DNA from: Sipunculus nudus
Taxonomy: Eukaryota > Annelida > Sipuncula > Golfingiida > Sipunculidae
Assembly (NCBI GenBank): GCA_026874595.1
Contig: CM049313.1
Coordinates: 64,298,159 to 64,362,158, forward strand
DNA: 64,000 nt
Reading direction: 5' to 3'
The notes under the pieces are model-generated. The model did not search any database. It worked only from the letters and a program-made list of their open reading frames with translations, and was not told where the DNA came from. Made by a program: the position numbers and the translations under genes. Shown here piece after piece: positions 4,839 through 64,000 of this stretch (the stretch's first letter is position 1; each line of letters starts with the position of its first letter).

Positions 4839-5039
4839 ACGTGCAGCACTGTGGATGATGCTGAATTTATTCCTCAGATTCTCTGACCTCACTGACCTTT
4901 ATGAGTTTATGCGCTATAAAGTTTGTGTACCACCTTCCTTCGGCAACTCGTTTGCGCAGCACACGCTACCAAACATCTACCACTACCTTATTTTAGAAGT
5001 TATTCATCCAAGTAGCATTCATTGCAATTGCATTCTTTA

Positions 5040-7515
5040 AACCTTCATCACACTGGAGTTAGTAGCTTCAATTGCAAATATATCTTACAATAGTTCTGCA
5101 TACTGGAGATATGTAGCTTTCATTGCAATCGTATCTACAATATATTTGCATACTGGAGAGAATTAGGTTTCATTGCCATTGCAGCCTACAATACTTCTAC
5201 ACTTTGGAGATGACTAGCTTTCATTGCAATTGTATCCTGCAATACTTCTTCACACTGGAGATGAGTAGCTTTCATTGCAATTGTATCCTGTAATACTTCA
5301 ACACACTGGAGTAAGTAGCTTCTATTGCAGTTGTATCCTACAATACTTCTGCATTCTGGAAATATGTAGCTTTCATTGCAACAGTATCCTACAATATTTT
5401 TGCATACAGGAGATATAAAGTAGGTTTCATTGCCATTGCAACCTACAATACTGCTAAACTTAGAGATAACTATCTTTTATTGCAATTGTATCCTGAAATA
5501 CTTCTTCACACTGAAAATGAGTAGCTTTCATTGCAATTGTAATCTTTAATACTTCAACACACTGGGGTTAGTAGCTTCCTTTGCAGTTGAATCCTACAAT
5601 ACTTCTGCATTCTGGAAATATGTAGCTTTCATTGCAATAGTATCCTACAATATTTTTGCATACAGGAGATATAAAGTAGGTTTCATTGCCATTGCAACCT
5701 ACAATACTGCTAAACTTGGAGATAACTATCTTTTATTGCAATTGTATCCTGAAATACTTCTTCACACTGGAAATGAGTAGCTTTCAATGCAACTGTAATC
5801 TGTAATACTTCAACACACTGGGGTTAGTAGCTTCCATTGCAGTTGAATCCTACAATACTTCTGCATTCTGGAAATATGTAGCTTTCATTGCATTTGTACC
5901 CTACAATATTTTTGCATACAGGAGATATAAAGTAGCTTTCATTGCCATTGCAACCTACAATACTGCTACACTTGGAGATAACTAACTTTCATTGTAATTG
6001 TATCCTGAAATACTTCTTCACACTGGAAATGAGTAGCTTTCATTGCAATTGTAATCTTTAATCCTTCATCACACTGGGTTTAGTAGCTTCCATTGCAGTT
6101 GTATCCTACAATACTTCTGCATTCTGGAAATATGTAGCTTTCATTGCAATTGTACCCTACAATATTTTTGCATACAGGAGATATAAAGTAGGTTTCATTG
6201 CCATTGCAACCTACAATACTGCTCATTTGGAGATAACTAGCTTTCATTGTAATTGTATCCTGAAATACTTCTTCACACTGGAAATGAGTAGCTTTCATTG
6301 CAATTGTAATCTTTAATACTTCAACACACTGGGGTTAGTAGCTGCCATTGCAGTTGTATCCTACAATACTTCTGCATTCTGGAAATATGTATTTTTAATT
6401 GCAATTGTATCCTACAATATTTCTGCATACAGGAGATATAAAGTAGCTTTCATTGCCATTGCAACCTTCAATACTGCTACACTTGGAGATAACGAGCTTT
6501 TACTGCAATTGTATCATGCAATTCTTCTACACAATGGAATTAAGTAGCTTTCATTGCAATTGTACCCTACAATATTTTTGCATACAGGAGATATAAAGTA
6601 GGTTTCATTGCCATTGCAACCTTCAATACTGCTACACTTGGAGATAACGAGCTTTTATTGCAATTGTATCCTGAAATACTTCTTCACACTGGAAATGAGT
6701 AGCTTTCATTGCAATTGTAATCTTTAATACTTCAACACACTGGGGTTAGTAGCTGCCATTGCAGTTGTATCCTACAATACTTCTGCATTCTGGAAATATG
6801 TTTTTTTAATTGCAATTGTATCCTACAATATTTTTGCATATAGGAGATGTAAAGTAGGTTTCATTGCCATTTCAACCTACATTACTGTTACACTTGAAGA
6901 TAACTAACTTTCATTGCAATTGTATCCTGCAATACTTCTTCACACTGGAGATGAGTAGCTTACATTGCAATTGTATCCTGTAATACTTCAACACACTGGA
7001 GTTTGTAGCTTCAACTTCAGTTGTATCCTACAATATTTCTGCATTTTGAAAATATGTAGCTTTCATTGCAATTGTATCCTACAATATTTTTGCATACAGG
7101 AGATATAAAGTAGGTTTCATTGCCATTGCAACCATCAATACTGCTACACTTGGAGATAACTAACTTTCATTGTAATTGTATCCTGAAATACTTCTTCACA
7201 CTGGAAATGAGTAGCTTTCATTGCAATTGTATCCTACAATACTTCAACACATTGGAGTAAGTAGCTTCCATTGCAGTTGTATCTTACAATACTTCTGCAT
7301 TCTGAAAATATGTAGCTTTCATTGCAATTGTATCCTACAATATTTTTGCACACAGATGATATAAAGTAGGTTTCATTACCATTGCAACCTACAATACTGC
7401 TACACTTGGAGATAACTAGTTTTATTGCAATTGTATCATGCAATACTTCTGTGTACTGGAGAAAAGAAGCTTTTACTGTATTTGCATCCTACAATACTTC
7501 TGCATACTGCCAATA
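5040..7515. repeat. Higher-order repeat, 256-bp period built of about five 51-bp monomers
   Basis: Monomers share a core like GTAGCTTTCATTGCAATTGT followed by ATCCTACAATACTTCTGCA. The marker phrase GCATTCTGGAAATATG falls at about 5351, 5607, 5863, 6119, 6374, 6785, 7041 and 7297. Steps are therefore 256, 256, 256, 255, 411, 256 and 256. The 411 step is one period plus about three extra monomers. Flanking monomers at 5.04-5.35 kb are more diverged. Minus-strand frames inside it (for example 6080-6298, 7234-7443) are repeat artefacts. Confidence 0.93.
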
Positions 7516-7755
7516 CTACAGCATGCTGTCATATGTTAAATAATAGGACAACCTGGTCCATAACCATGAAATGCAAAATGTTACAAAGAGCGAGATGAAT
7601 GTTTTAGGATGTTCAGTTAAAACTTGAACTTAATATAATGGTGGTACAGTATACAACATTCCTTTCTAAACACATACATGGGTCTGGTTCAGTAAATTCT
7701 GTCACAGTTTTTGCAGTCTTTTTTTAATTAGTCAATCTGCACTCACAGGATGCAG
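7516..7755. other. Short spacer between two satellite arrays
   Basis: About 240 bp of AT-rich DNA with no gene or repeat recognised. Confidence 0.5.
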
Positions 7756-10700
7756 AGATTATCTTATCCAGATATCTGCACAGGCTGTGAGGCTTATCTT
7801 TTCTCATATAGAATCCTATATAAGCAGATTAAGACTTATCTCAAACAGAATTTTTTTAAAGGCTAAGGGGGATATCTCATCCAGAAAACTGAACAGGCTG
7901 GGAGACTTATTTAATCCAAATACCTGAACAGGCTATAAGGCTTATCTCATCCAGAAACCTGAAAAGGCTGTGAGGCTTATCTCATCCAGAAACCTGAGCA
8001 GACATGAGGCTTATTTCACCCAAAAACCTGAGCAAACTGTGAGGCTTATTTCACCCAGAAACCTGAACAGGCTATGAGGCTTATCTCATCCAGAAACCTG
8101 AACAGGCTATAAGGCTTGTCTCATCCAGAAACCTGAACATACTGTGAGGCTTATCTAATTCAGATCTGAACAGGCTGTGAAGCTCATCTCATTAAGAAAC
8201 CTGAACAGGCTGTGAGGCTTATCTCATACAGAAACCTGAACAGACTGTGAGGCTTATCTAATTCAGATCTGAACAGGCTGTGAAGCTCATCTCATTAAGA
8301 AACCTGAACAGGCTGTGAAGCTTATCTCATCCAGAAACCTGAACAGGCTGTGAGGCTTATCTAATTCAGATCTGAAAAGAGCTGTGAAGCCCATCTCATT
8401 AAGAAACCTGAACAGGCTGTGAAGCTCATCTCATTAAGAAACCTGAACAGGCTGTGAGGCTTATCTCATCCAGAAACCTGAACATACTGTGAGGCTTATC
8501 TAATTCAGATCTGAACAGACTGTGAAGCTCATCTCATTAAGAAACCTGAACAGGCTGTGAAGCTTATCTCATCCAGAAACCTGAACAGGCTGTGAGGTAT
8601 ATCTCATCCAAAAACCTGAACATACTGTAAGGCTTATCTAATTCAGATCTGAACAGGATGTGAAGCTCATCTCATTAAGAAACCTGAACAGGCTGTGAGG
8701 CTTATCTCATCCAGAAACCTGAACATACTGTGAGGCTTATCTAATTCAGATCTGAACAGGCTGTGAAGCTCATCTCATTAAGAAACCTGAACAGGCTGTG
8801 AGGCTTATCTCATCCAGAAACATGAACAGGCAGTGAGGCTTATCTAATTCAGATCTGAACAGGCTGTGAAGCTCATCTCATTAAGAAACCTGAACAGGCT
8901 GTGAAGCTCATCTCATTAAGAAACCTAAACAGGCTGTGAAGCTCATCTCATTAAGAAATCTGAACAGGCTGTGAGGCTTATCTCATCCAGAAACCTGAAC
9001 ATACTGTGAGGCTTATCTAATTCAGATCTGAACAGGCTGTGAAGCTTATCTAATTCAGATCTGAACAGACTGTGAAGCTCATCTCATTAAGAAACCTGAA
9101 CAGGCTGTGAAGCTTATCTCATCCAGAACCCTGAACAGGCTGTGAGGCTTATCTAATTCAGATCTGAAAACAGCTGTGAAGCCCATCTCATTAAGAAACC
9201 TGAACAGGCTGTGAAGCTCATCTCATTAAGAAACCTGAATAGGCTGTGAGGCTTATCTCATCCAGAAACCTGAACAGGCAGTGAGGCTTATCTAATTCAG
9301 ATCTGAACAGGCTGTGAAGCTCATCTCATAAAGAAACCTGAACAGGCTGTGAAGCTTTTCTAATCCAGAAACCTGAACAGGCTGTGAGGCTTATCTCACC
9401 CAGAAACCTGAGCAGACATGAGGCTTATCTCATCCAGAAACCTGAACAGACTGTGAGGCTTATCTAATTCAGATCCGAACAGGCTGTGAAGCTCATCTCA
9501 TTAAGAAACCTAAACAGGCTGTGAAGCTCATCTCATTAAGAAACCTGAACAGGCTGTGAGGCTTATCTCATCCAGAAACCTGAACATACTGTGAGGCTTA
9601 TCTAATACAGATCTGAACAGGCTGTGAAGCTTATCAAATTCAGATCTGAACAGGCTGTGAAGCTCATCTCATTAAGAAACCTGAACAGGCTGTGAAGCTT
9701 ATCTCATCCAGAAACCTGAACAGGCTGTGAGGCTTATCTAATTCAGATCTGAAAAGAGCTGTGAAGCCCATCTCATTAAGAAACCTGAACAGGCTGTGAA
9801 GCTCATCTCATTAAGAAACCTGAACAGGCTGTGAGGCTTATCTCATCCAGAAACCTGAACATACTGTGAGGCTTATCTAATTCAGATCTGAACAGGCTGT
9901 GAAGCTCATCTCATTAAGAAACCTAAACAGGCTGTGAAGCTCATCTCATTAAGAAACCTGAACAGGCTGTGAGGCTTATCTCATCCAGAAACCTGAACAT
10001 ACTGTGAGGCTTATCTAATTCAGATCTGAACAGGCTGTGAAGCTTATCTAATTCAGATCTGAACAGGCTGTGAAGCTCAGCTCATTAAGAAACCTGAACA
10101 GGCTGTGAAGCTTATCTCATCCAGAACCCTGAACAGGCTGTGAGGCTTATCTAATTCAGATCTGAAAATAGCTGTGAAGCCCATCTCATTAAGAAACCTG
10201 AACAGGCTGTGAAGCTCATCTCATTAAGAAACCTGAACAGGCTGTGAGGCTTATCTCATCCAGAAACCTGAACAGGCAGTGAGGCTCATCTAATTCAGAT
10301 CTGAACAGGCTGTGAAGCTCATCTCATTAAGAAACCTGAACAGGCTGTGAAGCTTTTCTCATCCAGAAACCTGAACAGGCTGTGAGGCTTATCTCACCCA
10401 GAAACCTGAGCAGACATGAGGCTTATCTCATCCAGAAACCTGAACAGACTGTAAGGCTTATCTAATTCAGATCTGAACAGGCTGTGAAGCTCATCTCATT
10501 AAGAAACTTAAACAGGCTGTGAAGCTCATCTCATTAAGAAACCTGAACAGGCTGTGAGGCTTATCTCATCCAGAAACCTGAACATACTGTGAGGCTTATC
10601 TAATTCAGATCTGAACAGGCTGTGAAGCTTATCTAATTCAGATCTGAACAGGCTGTGAAGCTCATCTCATTAAGAAACCTGAACAGGCTGTGAAGCTTAT

Positions 10701-11508
10701 CTCATCCAGAAACCTGAACAGGCTGTGAGGCTTATCTAATTCAGATCTGAAAAGAGCTGTGAAGCCCATCTCATTAAGAAACCTGAACAGGCTGTGAAGC
10801 TCATCTCATTAAGAAACCTGAACAGGCTGTGAGGCTTATCTCATCCAGAAACCTGAACAGGCAGTGAGGCTTATCTAATTCAGATCTGAACAGGCTGTGA
10901 AGCTCATCTCATTAAGAAACCTGAACAGGCTGTGAAGCTTATCTCATCCAGAAACCTGAACAGGCTGTGAGGCTTATCTCATCCAGAGACCTGAACATAC
11001 TGTGAGGCTTATCTAATTCAGATCTGAACAGGCTGTGAAGCTCATCTCATTAAGAAACCTGAACAGGCTGTGAGGCTTATTTCACCCAGAAACCTGAACA
11101 GGCTGTGAGGCTTATCTCATCCAGAAACCTGAACATACTGTGTGGCTTATCTAATTCAGATCTGAACAGGCTGTGATGCTCATCTCATTAAGAAACCTGA
11201 ACAGACTGTGAAGCTTATCTCATCCAGAAACCTGAACAGGCTGTGAGGCTTATCTCATCCAGAAACCTGAACAGACTGTGAGGCTTATCTAATTCAGATC
11301 TGAACAGGCTGTGAAGCTCATCTCATTAAGAAACCTGAACAGGCTGTGAGGCTTATCTCATCCAGAAACGTGAGCAGACACGAAGCTTATCTCATCCAGA
11401 AACCTGAACATACTGTGAGGCTTATCTAATTCAGATCTGAACAGGCTGTGAAGCTTATCTCATTCAGAAAGCTGAACAGGCTGTGAGGCTTATCTAAACC
11501 AGTAACCT
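7756..11508. repeat. Satellite of about 35-bp monomers, around 105 copies, with a 998-bp super-period
   Basis: Monomer types alternate: GAACAGGCTGTGAGGCTTAT with CTCATCCAGAAACCT (35 bp), the same core with CTCATTAAGAAACCT (35 bp), and a 33-bp form with CTAATTCAGATCT. The rare variant TCTGAAAAGAGCTGTGAAGC (with close relatives) is at about 8371, 9163, 9748, 10161 and 10746. The second and third recur exactly 998 bp later as the fourth and fifth. A second marker, AGCAGACATGAGGC, shifts by the same 998 bp (about 9411 to 10409). Monomers at the left edge (7756-8100) are the most diverged. Confidence 0.95.
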
Positions 11509-18364: not shown

Positions 18365-19640
18365 GCCTGTGTTATATGATAACTCTCTATCAGTTAAAAC
18401 TGATGCTCAGGTTGCATAATTACCCTTTATTGGTTACAATTACTTGGGTTGTATGATAACCTTCTATTGGTAAAACGGAATGTTTATAGGTTGTATGATA
18501 AACACCAATTGGATAAAATGATTGCTTAGATTTAATGAAAACCTCTGTTGGTTAAAAGGCTGCTTGAGTGTACGATTATCCTCTCTATTGGTTACAATGA
18601 ATGCTTAGGTTGAATGATAACCACCTATTGGTTAAAATGAATCCTTGGATAAAATGAAAGCATGTATCTTAACCCTCTTTTGGTTAAAATGAATGCCTAT
18701 AGGTTGTATGATAAACCTCTTTTGGAAAAAAATGAATGCTTAGGCTGTATGATATCCCTCTTTTGGTTAAAATGAATTATTAGACTGTATGATAACCCTC
18801 TTTTGGTTAAAATATATGCTTAGGTTGTATGATATCCCTCTTTTGGTTAAAATGAATGCTTAGGTTGTATGATATCCCTCTTTTGGTTAAAATATATGCT
18901 TAGGTTGTATGATATCCCTCTTTAGGTTAAAATGAATACTTAGATTGTATGATATCCCTCTTTTGTTTAAATTTATGCTTAGGTTGTATGATATCCCTCT
19001 TTTGGTTAAAATAAATGTTTAGGTTGTATGATATCCCTCTTTTGGTTAAAATATATGCTTAGGTTGTATGATATCCCTCTTTTGGTTAAAATAAATGTTT
19101 AGGTTGTATGATATCCCTCTTTTGGTTAAAATAAAGGCTTAAGTTGTATGATATCCCTCTTTTGGTTAAAATGAATGCTTAGGTTGTATGATAACCCTCT
19201 TTTGGTTAAAATGAATGTTTAGACTGTATGATAGCCCTCTTTTGGTTAAAATGAATGCTTAGGTTGTATGATAACCCTCTTTTGGTTAAAATGAATACTT
19301 AGGTTGTATGATATCCCTCTTTAGGTTAAAATAAATGCTTAGGTTATATGATATCCCTCTTTTGGTTAAAATATATGCTTAGGTTGTATGATAACCCTCT
19401 TTTGGTTAAAATGAATGTTTAGACTGTATGATAGCCCTCTTTTGGTTAAAATGAATGCTTAGGTTGTATGATAACCCTCTTTTGGTTAAAATGAATGCTT
19501 AGGTTGTATGATAACCCTCTTTTGGTTAAAATTAATGCTTAGGTTGTATGATAACCCTCTTTTGGTTAAATGACTGCTTGGGTTGCATGATATCCCTCTT
19601 TTGGTTGAATGACTGCTTAGGTTGTATGATAACCCTCTTC
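18365..19640. repeat. 40-bp tandem repeat, about 31 copies, with a local 200-bp order
   Basis: Consensus unit: TAGGTTGTATGATAACCCTC followed by TTTTGGTTAAAATGAATGCT. Two main variants have GATATCCCTC or GATAACCCTC. The variant AGACTGTATGATAGCCC occurs at 19221 and again at 19421, five units apart. Units are near-identical in the centre and steadily more diverged at the left edge (18365-18700). Confidence 0.95.
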
Positions 19641-34200: not shown

Positions 34201-37200
34201 GACTCAAATCAAATATTTATAATTCAGCCAAAATTCATTCTTTAGAACCATAAAAAGACAATTATTATCAGAATTATTCAGGGGGATATTCTTGTAAAAT
34301 TAATATTAAAACTAGAATACGGGTAGTCGACAAGCGACTACGTGTATCTGCCAAAATCAGAGTAGGACGAGTGAAGTGAGGCATGGATTGAGTGGCAAGG
34401 GGAAACAGAGTTACATCTGTTACATATTAGAATGGATCTGTGCAACATTAACATGATTGTAGGTGGCGCCACCTGTTATTTGAAGGAGAAACTATCCAAG
34501 ATGTATACACATGCAAAATTTCAGGTGGAAAAGTCAAACTACTGCAGAGATATGAGTGATTTTAACCCAAGGCAGACAAACAGATGGACGCTGTGCAAAA
34601 ATTGCTGCAGGTGGCGCCATCATTTTTGTGTACGTTATAAAGCTATCCAAGGGCTTCATTTGTGTAAATTTTTTTTCCTGATTGGTCAAACAGATCCAGA
34701 GATATAGGCATTAATGTCTGCAGCGTGAACGTGAACGTAGGTGGTACCACCTGCCATAAAATCAAGAAAGCTATGCGGGATGTATACACATGCTGAATTT
34801 CAGGTAATTTGGTCAAACCACTGCAGAGATATGAGTGATTTTAACCCAAGGCAGACAAACAGATGGACGCTGTGCAAAAATGGCGTAGGTAGCGCCGCCA
34901 TTTATGTGTATCTTATAAAGATATCTAGGGGCTACATTTGTGTAAAATTTTTTTCCTGATTGGTCGAACGAGTCCAGGGATATAAGCTTGGATGTCTACA
35001 GCGTGAACATGAATGTAGGTGACGCCACCTGTCAAAAAGTCAAGAAAGCTTTGCGGGATGTATACGCATGCCGAATTTCAGGTGAATTAGTCAAACAACT
35101 GCAGAGATACAAGTGATTTGAACCCAAGGCAGATGAACAGATGGACACTGTGCAAACATGGTTGCAGGTGGCGCCACCTTTTTTGTGTATGTTATAAAGC
35201 TATCCAAGGGCAACATTTGTGTAAACATTTTTTCCTGATCGGTCAAACGGTTCCCGAGATATGTGGGTTTATGTCTGGAAACAAACGCACAAACGGATGC
35301 TGGGCAGAGAGGAAAGGTCAGAGGTCAAGGCCACTTGGTTAGGCACCAGTTCACATGTGACCTGATAATTTGTGTAAGTTTCAGAAAAAATCCGTCCAGT
35401 AGTCTCAGAGAAGTTCTCCGGAAACGAACGCGGCGGCTGCGGTGGCGGCTGTGGACCCCGGTCAAGGGTTTTGGCGGATACAATTAATATAAAAAAAATT
35501 AAACAATTGCTGAAATACTTTCATGGGTGCACACAACACAAAAATTACTGTAGGTGGCTCCATCAGTCATCTATACCGCAAAGCTATCGGAGATGTACAT
35601 ATATACCCAATTTCAGACTGATATACCAAACCCCTCCTGAGAAATAAGCAGGGACATACACTTTGCAAAAATGATTGTAGGTGGTGCCACCAGTTTTGTA
35701 TTCAACAAAGCTATCAAGTATGTATAGATATGCACAATTTCAGATCACTCTTGGGAAATAAGCAGATACATACACAGTGCAATAATAACTGAAGGTGGCA
35801 ATACCAGTCTTGTGTATGAGGACACAGTCCAAGATGCATGGACAGGCCAAAAATTCAGGCAGATACATCAAACTTCTCTTGAGTCAGATACACTTGGCTG
35901 ACCAAGCTAAGCTGAGGCAGAAAGCTGCCACAAGTCAAGTGAAGCTAATTTGCCAGCTGCAGATACTGCACTGAATGAACTATTGACCTGTACTAGGCTA
36001 CACTGAGTGAACTCTTGACCTGTTGCAAAATCTGATACAGTTGGCAGTCTGCCAAAGCTATTAATATATCCAGATTGAAACCTGGTGTGTTGCCAAATCT
36101 GATGAAGTTGGCAGTCTTCAAAGCTATTTATAGATACAAAAAAAATTTTGGCAGGTTGCCAAATCTGTTTAATACTTTATACATACTGAAATGCTTCAGC
36201 TACAATGCTTTTTTTCAAGCTGCATATTCATAAATTATTTTACCAAAATGTTTTGGGTAATAAAAAATGCCTATTTAAAGAAAAATCAGAATAAAGATAT
36301 ATATTTTATTCATGGATTTATCTTACACATATGCTGGATATTGAACAAATTATTTATGTTGCCTGTACAGCTTTGCACTTATACCCAACAAGCTCAGTTT
36401 GTTAATACAATAAATCCACTTACTTTGTTTACCAAAGTATATACAATTCCTTCATTGTTAAATGTCCAATAAATCTACCAAAATCATCAACACAGGCCAC
36501 CTAAGAATAATCAATGAGCAATGTTACAGAAGTTGAAACTATTGCAGCCCTTAGTTTGAAATAAGGTTACTAATGGCCACAAGACCAACTTCAGCTTTCT
36601 AAGAATCTTCCAAAAATCAATGAATCCATTCTATCCTTTTATGCAATTGAAAGAACCCTACCCTAGGATAATTCTTGTGAAAAATTTAACCATTAAGCTT
36701 GATAGTTTCATCATAAATCATTTTCAAGCTGAAAGAGGCTTAAATAACGAGGTTTTTGCCCGTAAAAAACAGGTCAATGTATAAAGTGCTACAAAAACCT
36801 CAATTCCAAATAAGAGTCAAGTGACCAACATTGGCACAAAACTTGGTGATGCTAGCTCCTGCTGTTTCTGAGACTGTTATGTCTATATTCTTACTTGGCC
36901 AAATGACAAGTTCAAATTCTTGTAACTTGGCCAAAATCAATCAAACATTTGAACAAATTTAAGAAAGCTTGTCTCTGGGATCATTTCTGTTAAATATTGA
37001 ACAATTAGGCTGAATTATTTTGGAGAAGATTTTCAAAGGTTTTCAAGCTTTTTCCCTGTAAAATGTAAGGTGATGCAGGTGGCCCCACAAAAAGGCTCAA
37101 TCCCCCAACATTTGACATTTGACGGATTTTTGTGTAAAATTTGGGGATGCTAGCTCCTGCTATTCCTTAGAAATTATGAGTTAATGTACTGATGACCAAT

Positions 37201-40200: not shown

Positions 40201-41101
40201 TTATCCACTTTAGTATCCTAAAGCTGTCCTATTCTTTTTATTTATTTAAACATTCTTAGGTTGCAAGCTTTATCTTATCCAATTTAAAATCCTCAGGCTG
40301 ATCTATTGTATTCAGATAAATGTTCTCACGCTATTCTATTTGAAACATGTCAGTATCCTTAAGCAGTTCTATTTTTTTTTTTTTAAATCAAACATTCATA
40401 AGTTGTTCCATTTTATCCCATTTAATTTCCTCAGACTTCTATTTTATCCAGATAAATGTGCTGAAGCCATTCTTGTTCATACATGTTAGCATCTATAAAG
40501 TAGTTATATTTTTTTTTATAAAAGTAAACATTCTTGAGTTTTTTTATTTTATCCCATTTAATATCCTGAGACTGTTCTATTATTTCAGATAAATGTTCTG
40601 AAGCTATTCTATTTTATTCATGTTAGTATCCTAAAGCTGTTCTATCTTCTTATTCATTTAAACATTCTTGGGTTGTGCAATTTCATCCATTTTATTGTTA
40701 CATATTCAACATTTGACAAAAGACACTCTGCCATACAAACTATCACTTCAATGAATCAGAAAATTTACACAACACAATACCTCAGTCATACAAACAGATA
40801 CAGAAACACCATTCTCAACTGTTTTGACTCAGACAGTCAAAGCTCTGTTGGGCCTGGTGGCTGTGACCATCTGATTACTATAATCATGTTTGACAGCTCT
40901 ACACCTTCCCATATTGAAAAGATGCCTGTTGCCTGCCAAAAATGACAACCTTTCTTGTACCTGACACATGCAGAAATTTAACTGACTTTGGTGCCTGGTT
41001 TTGGAATTTGTCTTTAAATACACTTTAATGTGACAAGAAGCTGAAGAGTTATCAGCTGTGTTTATAGAGGCTGTTAAGGGTGACATGTTGTTAGAGCATG
41101 A

Positions 41102-41166
<65 letters not shown>

Positions 41167-44100
41167 ACCACATGCACACACACATCTGAATTTTAGGGAA
41201 TTTCTTTAATAGTTACCATATATACTAAATATCCTAGATTATTTAATATTTCCACATTCTGGTTAAAGAAAACACAGCCTCTCACATTGCAAATACAGTT
41301 TATAAATGATTCCCTTTGACAATGAGAAAAAGACAAAAAAAATCATCCAGAATTTGTCCAGTAATCATCCATGATTGATTACCAGGCTCACACGCTTTCA
41401 CTGCCTGACACAACCTTACACATGTGAAATAGACATTTTTATCTGAAAAAGTTTGAACAATAATCAACTTTGTACAGATGGGGCCCACATGAATAAAATT
41501 TCATGTACAGCTTAAATTTTTCTAAATTGGTCAGCCATGCTGAATGTGACTTGATTATGAGCAAATGAGATGAAGTCAACATGGATAAATTTAGTAAATG
41601 TTGTTAAAAGGTATCACCTTGTTAGTGATCACTACATACAGCCCCGATTCCCTTGTTACTCGACATTAGAGCCACTGTAAATCATACATAATGTGTGAAT
41701 ATGTTATAATGGGCAAGAAGAATCTGATACAGGCAGGATTAACATCCAATTATTTGGTCGGTTAAATGAAAACTGTCACCTGTCAAGGCAGATATCATAG
41801 GTCAATTGCCACTGCATTCATTTAAATGTACAGTCACTGTGAAGAATGATTCATATGTACAAGAATTTCTTTCTTATAAAAGAACTTTAATTTAATGTAT
41901 GAAAAACTGGGTGACTTTTTAATGTATCATATGTCACCAGGATGATATACAGTGACACTGCATGCTCACCCCATGTGATAACTATCTGGCTACATGCTCT
42001 GATTAGAGGAAAAAATAATCCCAGACAGCTAGCTGTTCCACAAACCTGGCACACAGGCCACAGTATCACTATCTCATTCTAGGCACTGTATCATGCATGG
42101 TACTATCATCTAAGTATGATGTACAATTATATAAGGTACTTGAATGCATTGATTAAAAGTCACTAGTAAAACAGAAAGTTATTTCATAAAACAGATGACT
42201 GTTTAGGTTTTGAATTATTCATGGAACAAAGCATCCATACATACAAGTAGATACAGATCTTAATACCCATGCCAATATTAAGAGCTATGTACAAAACGAC
42301 ATGTTCCAAGATTTTAAGTAATTATACACATTATGATTCTTTTCTCTTTTTCTCTGAATGCTATATTCAAGATTTTCCCCCAAATCATTTTTATATATAT
42401 ATATTTATCAATATATAAATTATACCATTTCCATTCTCTCATGCAAAACTGTATGCATGCAGAAACATAATGAACCAAAACCTAAACTAAACCTCCAAAT
42501 AAAACTGAACTTTATAATTTTATAATTTACATAACCCCCTCCCCCTTTTTATCAGAAGCAACGTTTTTCTAAGGGCTTCAGACAAAATTATGAGGCCTGG
42601 ACGCCCCCTTTTCCAGACCTGGGAACCTTTTTATAGGGTTTTCATTAGTCCTCCTGGGTTTGACACCCCATTTTCCTAAATCCTGAGATTCCACTGAGCC
42701 TATAATGTACTATACAATTGTGCAAATGTGGCGACCTAATTATAAAGGTTTTATTTTCAAAATAATTTCCTCTTCATGACTATAGCAAATTTGAAACCCT
42801 GGCCAACAAAAACCACAACCACAGTATGTGATTCTAAGGTCATGACACTTGTTAGGGTGGTGTATCTACTAAAACATCAAGGCTGCAGTAATAAACACAG
42901 CCATTAAGTTAATTTATAAGATTAAATTAAAGAACCATGCATTCAGTCTGAGAAGTTGTTATCTGGCATCCATTATCTTTCAAGTACATGTATCTGGCAG
43001 AGATGGATATCGTATTTGTTCAGGGCTTTTCATTCGGCAAATGGCACCCCATCTGCTGTAACAATATTTAAGACATCAGGACGGATTTTTGTATATATTT
43101 TCTCATTGTCTACTGTGCTTATGGTTGTGTGCAGTTGTTTATCTTTATAATTAGTACTAGGATAAAATAACTTAACAATAACAATGTGTTAGGCTACAAT
43201 CACCCCTTATTAACAATCTATTGTTCACACTTAATATCTATTACTACTGTCGCCTTCTTTCATTAATACATTATGATGAAACTAAAACAGAAAGTTGAGG
43301 ATCTATTGTTTTTGGCCCGGTGATAAAGCAATGTTTATTACAGAAATTCTTACATCTTGTGAAAAACTGACTTTGAATGTGTCCACATGCTAAACAATAG
43401 TCTATTATAGGCAGTTCCTTAAAAAGTCAACATGGGCAGAGTGCAACAAACCACAATATCAGTTAATTTAATATTCTGAGCTATCATACAATGTCTATAA
43501 AGTAATTATACATATTCATGATACAACAAGTGACCAATGGACCAAGGTGCTCAGCAGATGAGCACAACCTGTGATGCTGTGATTAATTCAAATCTTCACA
43601 CCAACAAGAAAGGAATCAAACAGTGAAATGAAAAATTAGAGTGAAACTGCTTATGCTGAAGACAATTTTAAACTTTAACTGAATTTCATAATTCACATTT
43701 TCTTGATAACAGCTATAAGGAATTTACTAGGTTAATTAATGTAGGTGGCACAACCAATCTTATGTTTTGAAAAAAATGTTTCAATCAATCATAACATGTT
43801 TTACTCAGATGACCTACAAAAGGCTATTTATAATGAAACTTGTCTTGTGTACCTATCAAGACAAAGACATATGACCAAACCTGAAAGATCCAAAGATCTA
43901 TGACCACACCTAAAACACAATCCACTGAGCAAAGATCTATGACCTCACCTGAAAGACAATCCATTGAGCAAAGATCAATGACCACACCTAAAATACAATC
44001 CACTGAGCAAAGATCTAAGACCACACCAAAAAGAAAATCCGTTGAGCAAAGATCTACGGCCACACCTAAAACACAATCCACTGAGCAAAGATCTATGACC

Positions 44101-47100
44101 ACACCTAATACACAATCCATTAAGCAAAGATCTACCACCATATCCAAAAGACAATCAATTGAACAAATCCTAAGTCATCATTTGTATGATCTGGATTAAA
44201 ACAGTTCAAGGTTATTCTTGCAGCAAAGGTCATGAGATGAATTACCCTAATTTAAATAGACTTCATACTCTGACTTATTTCTGCACCTCTGACTTATATC
44301 TACAAACACACACTTTGAGAAATTCTTAAAATATTTTTTTTAATAAATTCACAGGCAAAAAAGGTTTATAGAAAGAAAAAGAGAGAGAGAAAGAAAGAGA
44401 GAGAAAGAGAGAGAATAAATAAGGTTTCTCAAGGCTGATTTGCTTCGATATATGAGAGAAATGAGTCAGCTGTGCAAACAAGACTGATAAAAGCACTCAA
44501 AACAATAATCCTCATGTTCAGCAATTATTATGTGTAATTATATATTAAATGTAAGATTGTTTTCTGATGGGTCACATCTATATTTCAATTGCCTGAAATT
44601 AATAAATATAAAGCAAACTGGATAGGGTGCTAAAATTATTTATAACCCTACATGCCCATAACTCAGAAAATTCAAAATGCATTATGATTGTTTTTTTTTC
44701 ACATGCTTGATCAACTTTTAACTGGCTGTCAGGTCCATCAGGTTCAAGTCTTTATGTGTTAAGCCATTTTGTATCTCATGTAATTTAAAGAAAAGAAACC
44801 TGTTTAACAGAAATGACTGATAAATGGCATCAGTTGTCGATTTACAACCCCTGCTGCCATCTGTGAGCACACTAACACACTGATTGGCTCAAATTCTTGT
44901 GCAGCCATCTGGTGTTGAAACTACCAACTACCGGGTATGCATCATCTGCTAAATGATAGGAAAAGGGAAATGTCACTCCATTTTTAACTTTTGCCACTCA
45001 GAAGGCCTTTCAGACATACTTGAGACTGACAGATGATACTCCTTCATTTGGCTAGATTTTCTGTGTTGAGACATTCTGCATACCAGGATATATACCCCTT
45101 TCAAAACAATAACATGATCAGTAATTATCATAGCTTCAGTCTTCAAATTCCATTTAGTTTCTAGCTATTTAAGAAATATGAACAGAGCAAATGATGAAAT
45201 ATGTTGCCTGAAAATATAAGCCTTAAGGACTTCATGTTTTCTACACACAAAATAATCAACAAACCTTAGATGTTATATTGTACTCCAGCAAAAGTCTGTG
45301 GCTTTGTGTAAATTCATTATTTAGAATTTGCAGTGACCAAACATGACTTTAGAAGCTTTAGCTGTGGAATCAAATGCCTAAACCTGGCATGTATTTCACC
45401 AGTAAGGAACTCAACTTATTATTCTGGTCTTATAGCATCTGCCTAACAAAGAAAGAACAATGCAAATACTGAAATAGCACTCAGTGAAGCGCACACCTCA
45501 ACACCTCAACCCCTGCAAAAAAATCAATTCCATCTGCCACTTATAATATCTATAAACCAATTTCAATTGACTGAGGTCTACCCTGGCCAAGCATTAGCTT
45601 TGTGAACTTTTTATAACAGGTAACTGGCATTACTTGTTGCCTGTTCAACCCAGCAAGAATTATTATCAGGTTACATATATAAACTTATTTATTTTATATG
45701 GATTGTACAAATAGTTATTATAACTAATTGAGGCACTCTAAATGGCTCAGATGCTGACATTCAGTAGTCTGTAGGGGTGGAGGAAACCAGAGAACCAGGA
45801 GAAAACCACCAACCTTGGGTGGCCAACTATAACTCACTCTCATGGCCACACCTGGGATCAAACCCGGGTCCCCAGTGTAGGCAGCCAAGCCTTTACCCCC
45901 TTAACTGTCCTGGCCCTTAGGTTACCACAGCAGAAGGATCAGTGCTTAAATACAGTGAAAAATGCCCTTGCAGGGAGCAGATCAGATGTTATAATTAGAA
46001 TCTTAATGGATCCAACCCTTGGTCTAGATCTGCACTGAGATTTAATTGATTCTTCACTAGTAAATTTCCCACCCCTACAAAAAAAATAATCAAAATCAAT
46101 TCAGTTTTTGTGTAGCCTCAATTACAAACAAACCATAAAAAACAACCAATTAAACATGGGTGACAACACGTCCTCCCTGACACAGGTAAGGAGCTCTGAG
46201 GGCACCCAACAGTTTCATGGAAATCGGTTCTGTAGTTTTTGTGTAATCCTGCTAACAACCACACCAACAACCAAACTGAGGAAAAAAACATAACCTCCTT
46301 AGCAGCACTATCAAGAGTACGAATGAGAACCACTCACTCATAAGCTTCTGCTGGTCTTCTTCGTCTGCTGCTGATCGGTCTGTGGTGTCTAGTTTCTGTA
46401 CCTTCAGGAATTCTTTAAGTTCTTCTGCCCTTGTCATCCATTTATTCACCTGTCATAAAGATTTAACATGAACCACAGGTTATATTCAACCACAGGGATC
46501 AAAACTGTATTCTTTCAACTGGTCCAATTATTGCATTTTCAAATTATAAATCAATAAATCCTGCTGCCTACTTTAGTTTACCATGTGAATATTTCCTGGG
46601 CATGTTTTTCCATTCTTTGACCTAAAGTTGGTATTTTTATGTTTTGGCATATTTTGGTGCTATGGTTCACAATTCTGTGATTGAGACAAATGAAACTAAG
46701 AAAATATTTCAGATCTGCAGTTAAACCCTAATATGCTCACTTTCTGAATGTATGATATCCGTCTATAAACAAATGCATATTTTACAAAGGCTATAAAATG
46801 TTGATACAGGTTTTGTTATTTGAGAGATGCCCTTTATTATAACTGAGTTGTATTTCAGAGCCTTTTGGCTACCAGCTTCTGTTCACAACAAACCAAACAC
46901 CTCACAAAAATGCATCTCTGCTTCCTCTGTGGATTTGCTGGTGGTAGTATGTGATAAGTATAGCTCTGGTGGACAAACAGCCTTAGCTTAACTTATTGAC
47001 ATATTAATTTTTAGTTCCCTTGTTGAAAAACAAGTCTGTTTTACCTCTCTAAAGAAAACTATACTCTGTTCAACCAAACTGTATCCACATGTTTTTTTAG

Positions 47101-53100: not shown

Positions 53101-56100
53101 ATATCAAAGAATTCCCTGACTTTTTATGAAATTCCCCGACTTAAAAATAAATAAATTTTCCCCCGTCTTTTCCCTGACTGCTGGCAACCCTGTTAAGACT
53201 ATCATGATCACCATGTCAAACATTTTTTCAAGAACAGGTAAAGCCAATAAGGAACCCTCCACTTTTCTTGAATGAACTATGTCATTAAAAGCCAATGTGA
53301 ATGATACAGCAGGAACCCTATTTCTCATTATTGAAATTATTTCTGACCCTAGCAGCTGTATAACTATAAGGCAATAAAAAGTGTGACAGATGATCTGATG
53401 AGTTTAATACACACCATTAACTGCATGGGAGTCATTTAAGGACGACACCTGTCTGGACAGTCTGGCATCCTTCATTCTGCTGGTGACTAATTTCTTCAGC
53501 TCCTCAGCTCTTTGCATGTACTCCTGTACCTGTCATCAGCAAAGTAACAAGACATAACAGGCATCTGTGTTGCCACATTATATATTCCCTGCCCCTAACA
53601 AAGACACCTTTTTCCCAAAAAGGCTTCAAATGAAGGTTCAATTATTCTGTTCAACTTTCATCAACAAGACATTTAACAGGCTTATCTCCTTCAAACTGGT
53701 CTACAAATGATTGATTATGATAAAGGCAGCTGGATGATATAGCATATTTAGCTCTGCCAATTTCACTGGCTATTAATGGGTTTTGACAAAGGAAGTGAGG
53801 GGGGAGGCAAGCCCTAAAATGTTTTATTTGTAAGGTGCACTGGTATCCAATCAAACGCATTCTCATGCAACATAGTGCTAAAATACCATGCCAATGGTCA
53901 GCTTCATGCTGTCTTAGTAGTAAACTTTCCAAAGCAGAGGCAGATCCAGGATTTAGGAAGAGTCTAGCCAAGGAGGACTAATGATCAAGCCTTAAAAAGG
54001 TCCCTAGGTCCAGAAAAGGGAGGTCCAAGCCACAATAATCAGTCTTAAGCCCTTAACTAGTGGTCCATGGGCCATGACACTCAGCCGAATTCAAGGAATG
54101 TCGAACAATGAGCAAAATGACTGCCAGAGTGCCAAACAATCATGAATTTTTTTAAGAGTCCTTAGAAATGTCTGAGTACCTAGGAGATTTTTTATGGACC
54201 TCCCTGGATGTCAAGAAAGAAGATTCCAGGTCCAGCGGTAACAATTTGTGCCCTGTTAACAGACGGCCTGAAGGAGGGTCGATGGATAAAGAATGATCGC
54301 TATAGCCCAGATGACTGAAAGTCATCTGAGCTAAAAACTGTTGCCGTGGTTGTAAAAGTAGGGCTTTGGAGCCCCTGGACTCCCCCTCTGGATCCGCTTC
54401 TGGGAAGGTACACAAAAAATATGTGTTTTAGGTCAACAAGCTGAATTAACTTATCAGGCAATCACAATGCATTTGGTGACTGGCCATACCTTTAGTAGAG
54501 CAGTGTACTTTTATGGTCAAAACAAGACAAAACAATCAAGTCCTATGCAGTTACGCAGTGTACAGGTAGGTAAAGTGATATGTACAGGAAGCAATGAATG
54601 ATGAGATACAGGGCCTATACATGTTGCTGTACCAAGTATTAACTTGTATCCTAATTAGTAAAATAATCAAGAATTTATAAAGTTAGTGCTAGCTGGTGGG
54701 TTTCTACTTTGCTGAGATCATGTATGCATAAGTTTGTTTCAGATTATTTTTTTCAATAGAAATACTTTACCATATACAAATATTTCAGTATATTTACATG
54801 AGGATGAGAGACACTGGAACCGTCAAAGGAAAAAAAAAACTGTTTCTGAACTTGAGTCATCCACTACATTTATAAGAAAAATTTACAGAAATATTCAAAT
54901 ATTCTGACAAAAATAAACTCTTAATAAACTCAAGATAAAAGAGCTACCTTTTTGCGGATTGCTTCTTTTTTCCTTACATCTCTCTCATCTAGAAACATAA
55001 AGCAAAAGATGAATAACCATTGGACATATTATTTAACATTTTATATAAATGAAGATTCAGATTAATGAACATTTTATATTTATGTATAAAGGGTTTATAA
55101 AATATGTAGAAAAACTGAATAAGATGAAACCATCATGAAAATTTTGAAAAAGTTACTTTTGATATCTCATGATGGTTTAATTACAGAGAGTTTTCAATTT
55201 CTATTGTTGACCCAAAAGCAATTAGTGTTTCCAATTTTACAAAAATATGAAATTACGCGAAAGGAAGTCCCCCATTTTTTTTCTTACTGCAATGTGTAAC
55301 AGTATAGTAATATCAGATCTCAAATCTGTTTTACTGAAAAAAAATAAACAGATTTAAAACTGTCATTTCCAAAACAAACATAATACTTTTAAAAAAGTAT
55401 GACTTCACAGGCCTGCCCTGAAAAATAAACAATTGTTCATGAATGCTGTAGACTGGATTTGTTTACAAAACCAGTTAACTGAATAGTATGCACGTATAAC
55501 AGGAGTTGATTAGATCATGAGAAAAATGCTTACAGTGTATGGCAGGCATAAAGTGTTCCAAAGCTTTGCAGTACAAGTCTATAGAATGCTGTAGACTGGA
55601 TTTGTTTACAAAACCAGTTAACTGAATAGTATGCACGTATAACAGGAGTTGATTAGATCATGAGAAAAATGCTTACAGTGTATGGCAGGCATAAAGTGTT
55701 CCAAAGCTTTGCAGTACAAGTCTATAGCTTCTGCGTAATGGCCTTCTGTGTCTTTATTAACCGCTTCTGAGACTAGTGATATCTGAAACAATAATTTTCA
55801 AACCAGGACTAAAACCATTTTTTTTTCTATGACTTTTCATGGAGATACAATTAGATGGATTAGCACTGGAAAACCCAGATTGCGTCTGATGTTGCTTGCA
55901 ATCAGAAAGCATGCACCTTCGTGTGAAAGCTCTTTCATCCAGCTACTGGCACTTGTCTATTGCCCAAAGGTTATCCCTGATGTATCACCAAGGATACCAC
56001 AGTATCACTTAGCAAGGAAGCTGTCATACCTTTCCTGACTAGATATATATTCTTTTCAGATGTAATGAATTTGTAGGATATAATTTAGTTAGCACTGTAA

Positions 56101-59100: not shown

Positions 59101-62100
59101 TAGTATCCCCAGACAATTAATTCCCCCGCCATCCTTTAAGAATAGGCCCCAATCTTCAGCAGCATATACTGACACATGGCAAGCAACCATGGTTTTTACA
59201 TCTATCAATTTGAGAAACAATATTTTTTCACATTATTTATTATTCACAATACGAGGGGCCAATATGGTGAATCACTCTTGAGAAAAGCGGATTAATTTAT
59301 ACTATTAATATGGTAAGGTAGGTAGAGCCACCTGTCTGGTTGATGAGGAAACTCTCCAAGATGGATGTACATGCCAAATTGCAGAACAACACATTGAACA
59401 ATTCCTCAGCTATGAGCAATTTTCACCTACAGCAAATGTACAGATGGATGCGACTGAAAACTATTGCAAATGGCGCCACCAGTACTGAACATGAGATGGA
59501 GGTATCCAAGATGTATGGACAAGCACAATTTCAGGCCAAACCAGCAAATCATTCCTGAGAAAAGGGCATTAATTTATACTATGAAACCAGTAAAGTAGGT
59601 GGTGCCATCTGTCAGCTTAATGAGGAAACTCTCTTAGATGGATGTACATGTTCACAGTACATACTGTTAAGAGGCAATGATGGGATATTAGAAGGCATGA
59701 ACACATGAAAAGGACAGAAGTGGCCCCACCTGTCTTCCACAGAAGACACAGCTTTCCAAGATCTTCAGTCAATTTGATTTTTGGACCAATCCATGCATCC
59801 CTTATTGAGATATTTATGATTTTGTATTATGTTCACCATATATGGCAATATTCAAGGTCACGGTAACTCTCATACATACATCATCATCCTATAAGCCATA
59901 CCTATGTATATGCAAAATATGAAAGAAACCTGTCCATTAGTCTTTGACTTATAAAGCTCACCGTACTGTCAAGTGGCAATGATGGGGGTAGAAAATGGCT
60001 GAAAACAAAAAAAGGATAATAGGTGGCACAACCAATTTCAGTACATGGCAACACTATCCAAGATCTTCAGTCAACTTGATCTTTTGATAAATCAATGCAA
60101 TATTTCTTAAGATATTTAAGAATTTTTGTGATTTTAACTCCAAAATGGACCTTTTAAAGGTCAAGGTCGATCTCCTAGTAAAGGTCATGACCCCATTTTA
60201 TATAGCCTACATCCTCTCATCCATATCTATGCACAGGTCAAGTTTGGTAAAGATCAGTGAAATATTTTTTTAATTATCTTGCCTGAAAGAAATCTCTGCA
60301 GCAGCGGTGCAACCGTGCCTAAACCATACTATTCCCGACTTTGTCTGTCGATACAATTATTACAGTTAAAATAAAAGTTATCATAATTAGTTACTGAGTT
60401 TTTTATCAAGGAGTGGTTCAGGAGGTTTTAAATTGTAAACCCAAATGCAAGAACAAGGGACCTATGGGTCACTGTGCTCAGCTGACGTTAACCTTGAAGG
60501 TAAAAATCTAAAATAATATCTAATGGAGATAAAGTGTAAGAGGAAGAGGTAATAAAGGCCATGGTTGGTTTATATGATTGGTTTGTATTGATGAGCAAGA
60601 AATTGTTGCCAAAAATATTTTGTGACCTGACCATGTGTTTCCTAATGTTGAAACTAAAGCATGTGAGCAGTTTGTGAACAAATGATCTGTACTATTACCA
60701 TGATCATTAGTTGGTTTTTCGATTGACTGTTGACATTTCAGTAGTTTACACATTTGTTCAATTGAATCTATTTTTTTGTATAATATATATTATTAAATAT
60801 ATATGTATTTTTTTATGAAATGTATACAGTTGAAATATAGCTAATTAACAACATAAAACAGGGCAAACAAAGCCTGATCTCAAATTCTGCTGAGGCAGGA
60901 AAATAATGAACAAATGTTTGTATTAAATCCTGATTTTTTTATCTCATCAATTATTTTCTAATTTAAGTTTATATTTCTATTCATTTCCAATATAACATAT
61001 ATTTCTGAATATAAAAGTTGATTCATAATTCTCAATTGCATCATCATAAATCTTAATCTTGTCAGATAACACCACATCATGCATACAAGTGTTTATTTAT
61101 TTTTTACCACAAAAATATATCTTTTAAATCTGTAAAACAATAAATATCTAAAAATAATACTTGATTTAGATTTCACAATTTTTAATTGTGTCTTTATTTA
61201 TCCATAATGTGCTTCATATTTTATAATAATTTAAGCGTACTGATGGGTTCATTTATATTTGTTAAAATCATTTAAAAGAAAATTGATTTCTTTAAAAATG
61301 CTACAATACACAACATTGCATCTTCTGGATTACACCTTGAATTATTTTTTCAAGGAAAGTTTTTGCATATCGGAGTGGAAACAGCATTACAATTAAGGAG
61401 ATACAGTGAAAACAATAACAATTACTGCATAACACTTGGTGGGTTGGGTTTGCGGGGGGGGGGGGGGGGGGGGGGGGGGGATGATTGGGGTGGTGATATG
61501 AGAATAACTGTACACCTGTCACAGCAGGGGATCTCCCCCAGTGACTGTAACAAATCAGAAACCCTGGCATAGCTGACTTCCAGTGACCTGGAGTGGGACC
61601 CTGCATCTGTAATCAAAGCAAGTGACTACAGAAAAAAATCAATAACTAGCTTAATTTTCAAGCTTTTATTTTCAAATTTCAGATTTAGACAAACTAAATA
61701 TTTATGTTTACATGCTGTGAAAATTAAATCAATGGTGCTTACAGGAAAAAAACGTGCCATGGTCAAAGTTGGGCAAAATTTAAGGTACTGATTTTTTTTT
61801 ATGCTAATAACTTAAAAAATTTACAAAATTCAGATCTAATTTTGGGTAAACAATTGAATCTTAATTAAACATAGTTATATACTTGATAAAATAGACTCTA
61901 GTTTCAAAATTTTTCATGTTAAGTGAGTTATTATTTTTCCTGATTTTTTTACAAAGTCTATTATGTTTGGGCCAATAACTTAAAGAATTTATACTTTACA
62001 GACTTAATTTCTGGCATGTACATAGGAACTATATAGAGGAATAGTTATGGTAAATATGAGGAAAAACAGATGAGTGGTTTCGATATTAGGCAGTCCTGAA

Positions 62101-62622: not shown

Positions 62623-63187
62623 CTGTAAAATGAGAAGTTCATGTGGAAATATATGTCACAGAGTGTGTACAGAATATTGTAGCAATTCTGCCCCTCTGAC
62701 CAAAGAATGTCTACAGAGGTGTAAGAGTGGCAGCACATGCTATGTGAAAACTGCAGTGAAACTCTTGATGAGGATTCAATCTGTATCATCACTTTTCACA
62801 AAGCCTCACTGCTTACAACAGGCGTGCCAAAGATAAATGACTGAATAAAAAGAGCAAATGCTTGGAAAATAAGAGCAGACTTATTTGAAATAAGAGTGAA
62901 AAAAACTGAGTAAAAATTAGCATGAATTCCCTTTTTTTTATCACAGACTGAACAAAGATGTGCTTCACATACCACATTTGTGTATATATATCGACACATA
63001 TTGTTCCTGAAAACAGATACATACACAGTGCACATCAAACTGTGTGAAGATGAGGGCATTTTCCGCATGTTGTAACACGTGATAGACATTTGCACACAAA
63101 TAAATTGCCAAATGTCCTCTTCTTGTCCTAAATGGACTGTTAAAGCAGGAGAGAAATAGTATATATCAGAATTCTTTCACTGAAAAC
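62623..63187. other. ULK3 intron, no exon seen
   Basis: No kinase-like frame with splice sites is present. Frames of 60-99 codons here lack any motif. Confidence 0.5.
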
Positions 63188-64000
63188 AAGAGACCTATGG
63201 GTCACTGTGCTCAGCTGACGTTGACCTTGAAGGTAAAAATCTAAAATAATATCAAATGGAGATAAAGTGTAAGAGGAAGAGGTAATAAAGGCCATGGTTG
63301 GTTTATATGATTGGTTTGTATTGATGAGCAAGAAATTGTTGCAAATAATATTTTGTGACCTGACCATGTGTTTCCTAATGTTGAAACTGAAGCATGTGAG
63401 CAGTTTGTGAACATATGATCTGTACAATTACCATGATCATTAGTTTGCTTTTCGATTAACTGTTGACATTTCAGTAGTTAACACATCTGTTCAATCAAAT
63501 CTTTTTTTTTGTATAATATATATTATTAAATATATGTTTGTTTTTTTTTATGAAATGTATACAGTTGAAATATAACTAATTAACAACATTAAACATGGCA
63601 AACAAAGCCTGATCTCAAATTCTGCTGATGCAGGAAAATAATGAACAAATGTTTGTAATAAATCCTCATTTTTTATCACATCAATTTTTTTTTAAATTTA
63701 AGTTTATATTTCTATACATTTTCAATATAACATATATATCTGAATATAAAAGTTGATTCATAATTCTCAATTGCATCATCATAAATCTCAATCTTGTCCA
63801 TTACACCACATCATGCATACAAATGTTTATTTATTTTTTACCACAAAGTTTATCTTTTAAATCTTCAAAACAATAAATATCTAAAAAAAATTCTTGATTT
63901 AGATTTCACAATTTTTAATTGTGTCTTTATTTATCCATAATGTGCTTCATATTTTATCATAATTTAAGCATACTGATGGGTTCCATTATGATTGGTAAAA
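63188..64000. repeat. About 0.8-kb direct repeat, right copy, cut by the window edge
   Basis: It starts ACAAGAGACCTATGGGTCAC and tracks 60456-61275 to the end of the window. At 63222 it keeps TGACCTTGA where the left copy has TAACCTTGA. Confidence 0.9.

Follow-up and report, generated by a model that had tools for sequence, protein, structure and literature searches.

A perfect 143-bp tandem duplication copies a splice donor into an intron of a ULK3-like gene in Sipunculus nudus

A ULK3-like gene lies on the minus strand of the 64-kb stretch of Sipunculus nudus DNA analysed here (the window), and the end of the exon that opens its first MIT domain is part of a perfect 143-bp tandem duplication. 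The two units, 55441-55583 and 55584-55726, adjoin and are identical at 143 of 143 bases; at a lag of 143 the exact match covers 144 bases (55441-55727), position 55727 being a 1-bp extension. The right unit runs from the real end of the exon (55726-55677) into the intron, of which it takes in the first 93 nt (55676-55584), and the left unit is an intronic copy made of 50 exon-derived and 93 intron-derived nucleotides. The exon end CACT/GTAAGC (the slash marks the junction) is found at 55677/55676 and again at 55534/55533. Both the perfect abutting units and this partition of exon end and donor between them had been claimed in the original prediction, and the coordinates hold. We think it probable that this is a real and young tandem duplication that is mostly silent, the natural donor being mostly kept.

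The identity of the gene was deduced from four exons, 62622-62467 (156 nt, end of the kinase domain, ISTDVKV...SLPKA), 55782-55677 (the natural exon, 106 nt, that is 35 residues plus 1 nt, start of the first MIT domain), 54988-54948 (41 nt, middle of this domain) and 53529 to about 53412 (its end), which join in frame to give a kinase end followed by a complete MIT domain. When compared with Pfam, the joined exons match the MIT profile PF04212 (3.2e-24, 85.2 bits), and the Pkinase score of 18.3 bits, below the cut-off of 31.7, is that of a kinase of which only the tail is included. Compared with solved structures, the kinase tail hits ULK3 (6fdy, 4e-07); for the MIT part the best matches are VPS4 chains (8e-13), and ULK3 is a weak one (4wzx, 7.6e-04). 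Since a kinase followed by an MIT domain is the layout described for ULK3 in PMC4475061, and a kinase followed by a first MIT domain is what we found, the predicted product is ULK3-like and the earlier naming of the gene and of its first-MIT exon stands. Further downstream, an open frame at 48570-48433 on the same strand is a candidate piece of the second MIT domain (PF04212, 21.4 bits; curated cut-off 30), and the minus strand of 46252-46452 gave no MIT match in the profile search. The natural exon is flanked by introns of 6,684 nt upstream (62466-55783) and 688 nt downstream (55676-54989).

The 144-base match is the longest exact direct repeat in the window (lags of 25-2999, five minisatellite arrays masked). 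In five order-1 Markov simulations the longest exact repeat reached 14 to 18 bases, and a chance repeat is therefore excluded. With the unit as query, blastn against the window (E up to 1) found the two known units and no third copy, and no 15-mer of the unit was found again elsewhere in the window; nothing in the window thus suggests that the unit belongs to a longer satellite or to a mobile element. A 20-mer of the exon end had no match in the viral and none in the prokaryotic contig collections, a result that is little informative for a eukaryote. The breakpoints can be read directly: the left flank ends in TTCAT and the unit in CTATA, the right flank starts with GCTTC and the unit with GAATG, meaning that flank and unit share 1 base of microhomology at one end and none at the other. 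Abutting, near-identical copies with simple ends and little or no microhomology are the marks of a short tandem duplication. Such near-blunt ends, with a single shared flank base, fit end joining or a slip of replication or repair rather than recombination between repeats. In the Drosophila copy-number set of PMC4056370, 35% of the breakpoints are blunt; tandem duplications account for only 2 of 50 insertions in that set, from which seven putative ones had been filtered out beforehand, and this low share would, by analogy, weigh against reading the repeat as a duplication accident.

How unusual such a repeat is was judged against a sample (L002-L027) of twenty 10-kb stretches of contig 1 (200 kb, no N) and six of contigs 2 to 5 (60 kb, with 366 N, which are gaps or else withheld sequence). 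Two-to-three-copy rows, defined as TRF rows with a period of at least 40 and fewer than 3.2 copies, numbered 20 in the 200 kb and 7 in the 60 kb, with 75-96% match. None of these 27 rows in 260 kb is perfect, the rows not all being independent (three in L006 overlap, and four in L026 are parts of, or lie beside, one array). Periods near 278 and 322-344 recur among them, as if inside mobile elements. Perfect tandems with a period of at least 40 occurred in the 260-kb sample only in L002 and L026, inside minisatellite arrays; L002 also contains a perfect 2.1-copy repeat of period 25 (7077-7128), and pairs at least 95% identical over the full period were also present in L007 (inside an 11.6-copy array) and L014 (a 3-copy repeat, 96%). 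In the window itself, one of the four two-to-three-copy rows is perfect. Short tandem duplication is a common process in this genome and a perfect copy is unusual, which fits either a very young duplication of this common kind or, with less likelihood, an assembly slip. If substitutions accumulate at 1e-9 to 1e-8 per site per year (assumed rates), ages of up to about 10 or 1 Myr, respectively, are compatible at 95% with 0 differences in 143 sites; the probability of such an outcome is 0.24 at 1% divergence and 0.056 at 2%. The original prediction had taken zero differences to imply either a very recent event, perhaps still polymorphic, or an artefact; a very recent event is not forced by the numbers, given that range of compatible ages, and polymorphism in the population is plausible. 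The copies may be no older than the allelic divergence in a variable species.

Several other repeats of the window are recorded here in their own right. Three older short tandem duplications lie at 34500-35262, 36022-36167 and 40269-40645, with periods of 278, 66 and 136 and matches of 84, 77 and 76%, respectively; rows with a period of 277-278 are also present in the sampled loci L016 and L017. Five minisatellite arrays (1-519, 5010-7528, 7873-11508, 18371-19639 and 43891-44167, with units of about 53, 51, 35, 40 and 39 bp) together make up some 8 kb of the window's 64 kb. The GTCCGTCCGTC and AGCTCAGNTGAC repeat types are reminiscent of bivalve molluscs. In the long ULK3 intron, 61454-61480 is an uninterrupted run of 27 G. 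Two direct repeats, 60452-61267 and 63185-64000, are 93.5% identical over 819 aligned columns and bracket the last ULK3 kinase exon (62622-62467), the right copy reaching the end of the window. They resemble a mobile element present twice, and recombination between them would delete this kinase exon.

We then considered the donors. The natural, exon-proximal donor has its GT at 55676-55675 (ACT/GTAAGC) and the copied, distal one at 55533-55532, in the same sequence context (50 nt upstream, 93 nt downstream). Splice sites were scored, here and below, with crude matrices set up from general background knowledge; on this scale the two identical donors tie as the best between 54990 and 55782. The donor is moderate (4.5% of the 3,789 GTs on the minus strand score as high) and the natural acceptor poor (23% of 3,870 AGs reach its score), so that exon definition at the natural exon could be leaky and the choice of the natural donor could leak as well. 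Intron lengths of 6,684 and 688 nt place this exon in the class with long introns on both sides. For that class, the human data in PMC9225289 indicate a preference for the donor nearest to the upstream acceptor across the exon, and the older rule, by which the donor nearest to the downstream acceptor wins, holds there for short introns. In its minigenes, two identical donors combined with 365-nt introns resulted in exclusive use of the upstream donor, and weakening both donors caused the larger exons to be mostly skipped; among natural human events with donors of nearly equal strength, the upstream one is favoured but not used exclusively. The minigene splice sites are much stronger than those of the ULK3-like exon. 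With long introns on both sides and equal donors, the analogy predicts that the natural donor at 55676 should be favoured and the distal donor chosen only in a minority of cases.

Three other readings of the repeat have to be weighed against a real and mostly silent duplication. It might be an assembly artefact in which 143 bp shared by the overlapping ends of contigs or haplotypes stayed uncollapsed when these were joined, the animal having a single unit. The absence of any difference between the units points in this direction, as does the way in which the repeat stands out from the 27 imperfect rows of the sample; against it, the window contains no N, its 2.5- and 3.6-kb minisatellites are resolved, and the assembly is chromosome-scale, the five contigs sampled measuring 93 to 111 Mb. 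Contigs of this size and N-free minisatellites make it likely that long reads were used, and from this we infer an assembly built from reads that would span 286 bp, the unit being far shorter than any long read. We thus regard an artefact as unlikely. If the repeat is real, the distal donor might be the one in use. The exon would then grow from 106 to 249 nt and run into an in-frame TAA after 19 codons, close to the 20 or so originally predicted, and the allele would be a partial ULK3 loss of function tolerated when heterozygous. The equal strength of the two donors and the frame of the TAA are in keeping with this reading, and for intron-defined sites PMC9225289 does uphold an intron-centric proximity rule; however, both flanking introns here exceed 250 nt, the range in which the same source reports the exon-proximal donor to be preferred. 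Predominant use of the distal donor is, in our opinion, improbable.

The third reading concerns the small exons that the intronic copy could provide. Six AGs are able to start an exon running to the copied donor; the frame stays open for two of them when the exon is added to the natural one (55578, 45 nt; 55563, 30 nt) and for two when it replaces the natural one (55621, 88 nt; 55588, 55 nt). The 55-nt potential exon behind the acceptor GTCTACAG (55588-55534, minus strand) exists as it had been described. Added after the natural exon, as envisaged at the time, it shifts the frame and a stop follows in the next exon; two in-frame outcomes had been missed. Both 106 and 55 leave a remainder of 1 on division by 3, so replacement of the natural exon by the 55-nt one keeps the frame with a net loss of 17 codons, and this truncated MIT1 retains positions 24-66 of the 66 of the MIT profile (51.8 vs 85.2 bits). 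The other outcome is addition of a 45-nt exon (55578-55534, minus strand) with the acceptor TATAG, which inserts 15 residues, in effect a second copy of 15 MIT1 codons. A single mutation would in this way have instantly made a new alternative exon, either the 45-nt one added or the 55-nt one swapped in, with most other uses of the copy ending at stops. The acceptor at 55578 scores better (-0.81) than that of the natural exon (-1.48), but GTCTACAG is weak (-3.37, 37.6-37.7% of the 3,870 AGs scoring as high), and TATAG lies 10 nt after the CAG of GTCTACAG, so that a spliceosome that scans in from the upstream side would come to this CAG before TATAG. Moreover, only 88-98 nt separate these exons from the natural donor, and replacement requires that the natural acceptor be skipped. 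All in all, the candidate acceptors in the duplicated segment are weak to middling on the crude matrix and are paired with a donor identical to the natural one. We consider a protein outcome from either small exon very improbable, and the instant birth of an alternative exon is, to the same degree, far from expected. If it were true, the allele would express a second form of ULK3 with MIT1 altered and the second MIT untouched, and exon birth would have been caught at an age near zero, possibly still segregating. Such a form would be of interest because human ULK3 binds IST1 mainly via MIT2, and MIT1 and MIT2 each have a share in CHMP1 binding and in the abscission checkpoint (PMC4475061). The same intron contains, at 55409-55417, a possible 9-nt in-frame microexon, GGCAGGCCT, preceded by CAG and followed by GTGAAG; its acceptor scores 1.6 (8.7% of AGs score as high) and its donor -1.5, and it is very likely due to chance.

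Returning to the real, young and mostly silent duplication, we propose that a single accident of DNA repair or replication, with 0-1 bp of microhomology, would have duplicated 143 bp across the donor of the first-MIT exon. The downstream intron would thereby have grown from 545 to 688 nt and acquired a second, identical donor together with potential small exons. By exon definition, the spliceosome would mostly keep the natural donor at 55676, leaving the ULK3 protein unchanged, and low-level use of the copied donor would give a stop-containing transcript that decays. The mutation is of an ordinary type, unusually placed and most likely silent. If carriers and non-carriers exist, the repeat offers a natural test of the choice between identical donors 143 nt apart in one gene, and also of how often a boundary-crossing duplication yields a new exon; if they do not, it is an ordinary intronic insertion.

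A literature search on tandem duplication, 143 bp and ULK3 gave none with ULK3 among the matches listed, and the repeat is best compared with duplications described in other genes. The nearest of these is the potato RdRp gene, in which a duplication across an acceptor boundary gave a new spliced intron (PMC4974935). As in the ULK3-like gene, a short tandem duplication over one exon-intron boundary copied ready-made splice signals, and there too an assembly artefact had to be excluded. The potato duplication copied the acceptor side, has accumulated ten differences and is documented by genomic and RNA reads, with the new intron spliced, whereas in the ULK3-like gene the copied part is the donor side, the units show zero differences, and the evidence is the DNA sequence. 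Tandem duplication also led to intron gain in ATP2A1, where it supplied both donor and acceptor when an AGGT segment was duplicated (Hellsten et al. 2011, as cited in PMC4974935), and Drosophila intron gains by tandem duplication are described in PMC2891723. The ATP2A1 and Drosophila duplications lie inside exons and involve a proto-splice site; in the ULK3-like gene, by contrast, a real donor was copied and the acceptors are AGs present by chance. The recent insertions by short tandem duplication of Messer and Arndt (2007, as cited in PMC4056370) are likewise two-copy insertions beside their source, and compared with them the ULK3 repeat is longer than their 1-100 bp range and straddles a splice donor.
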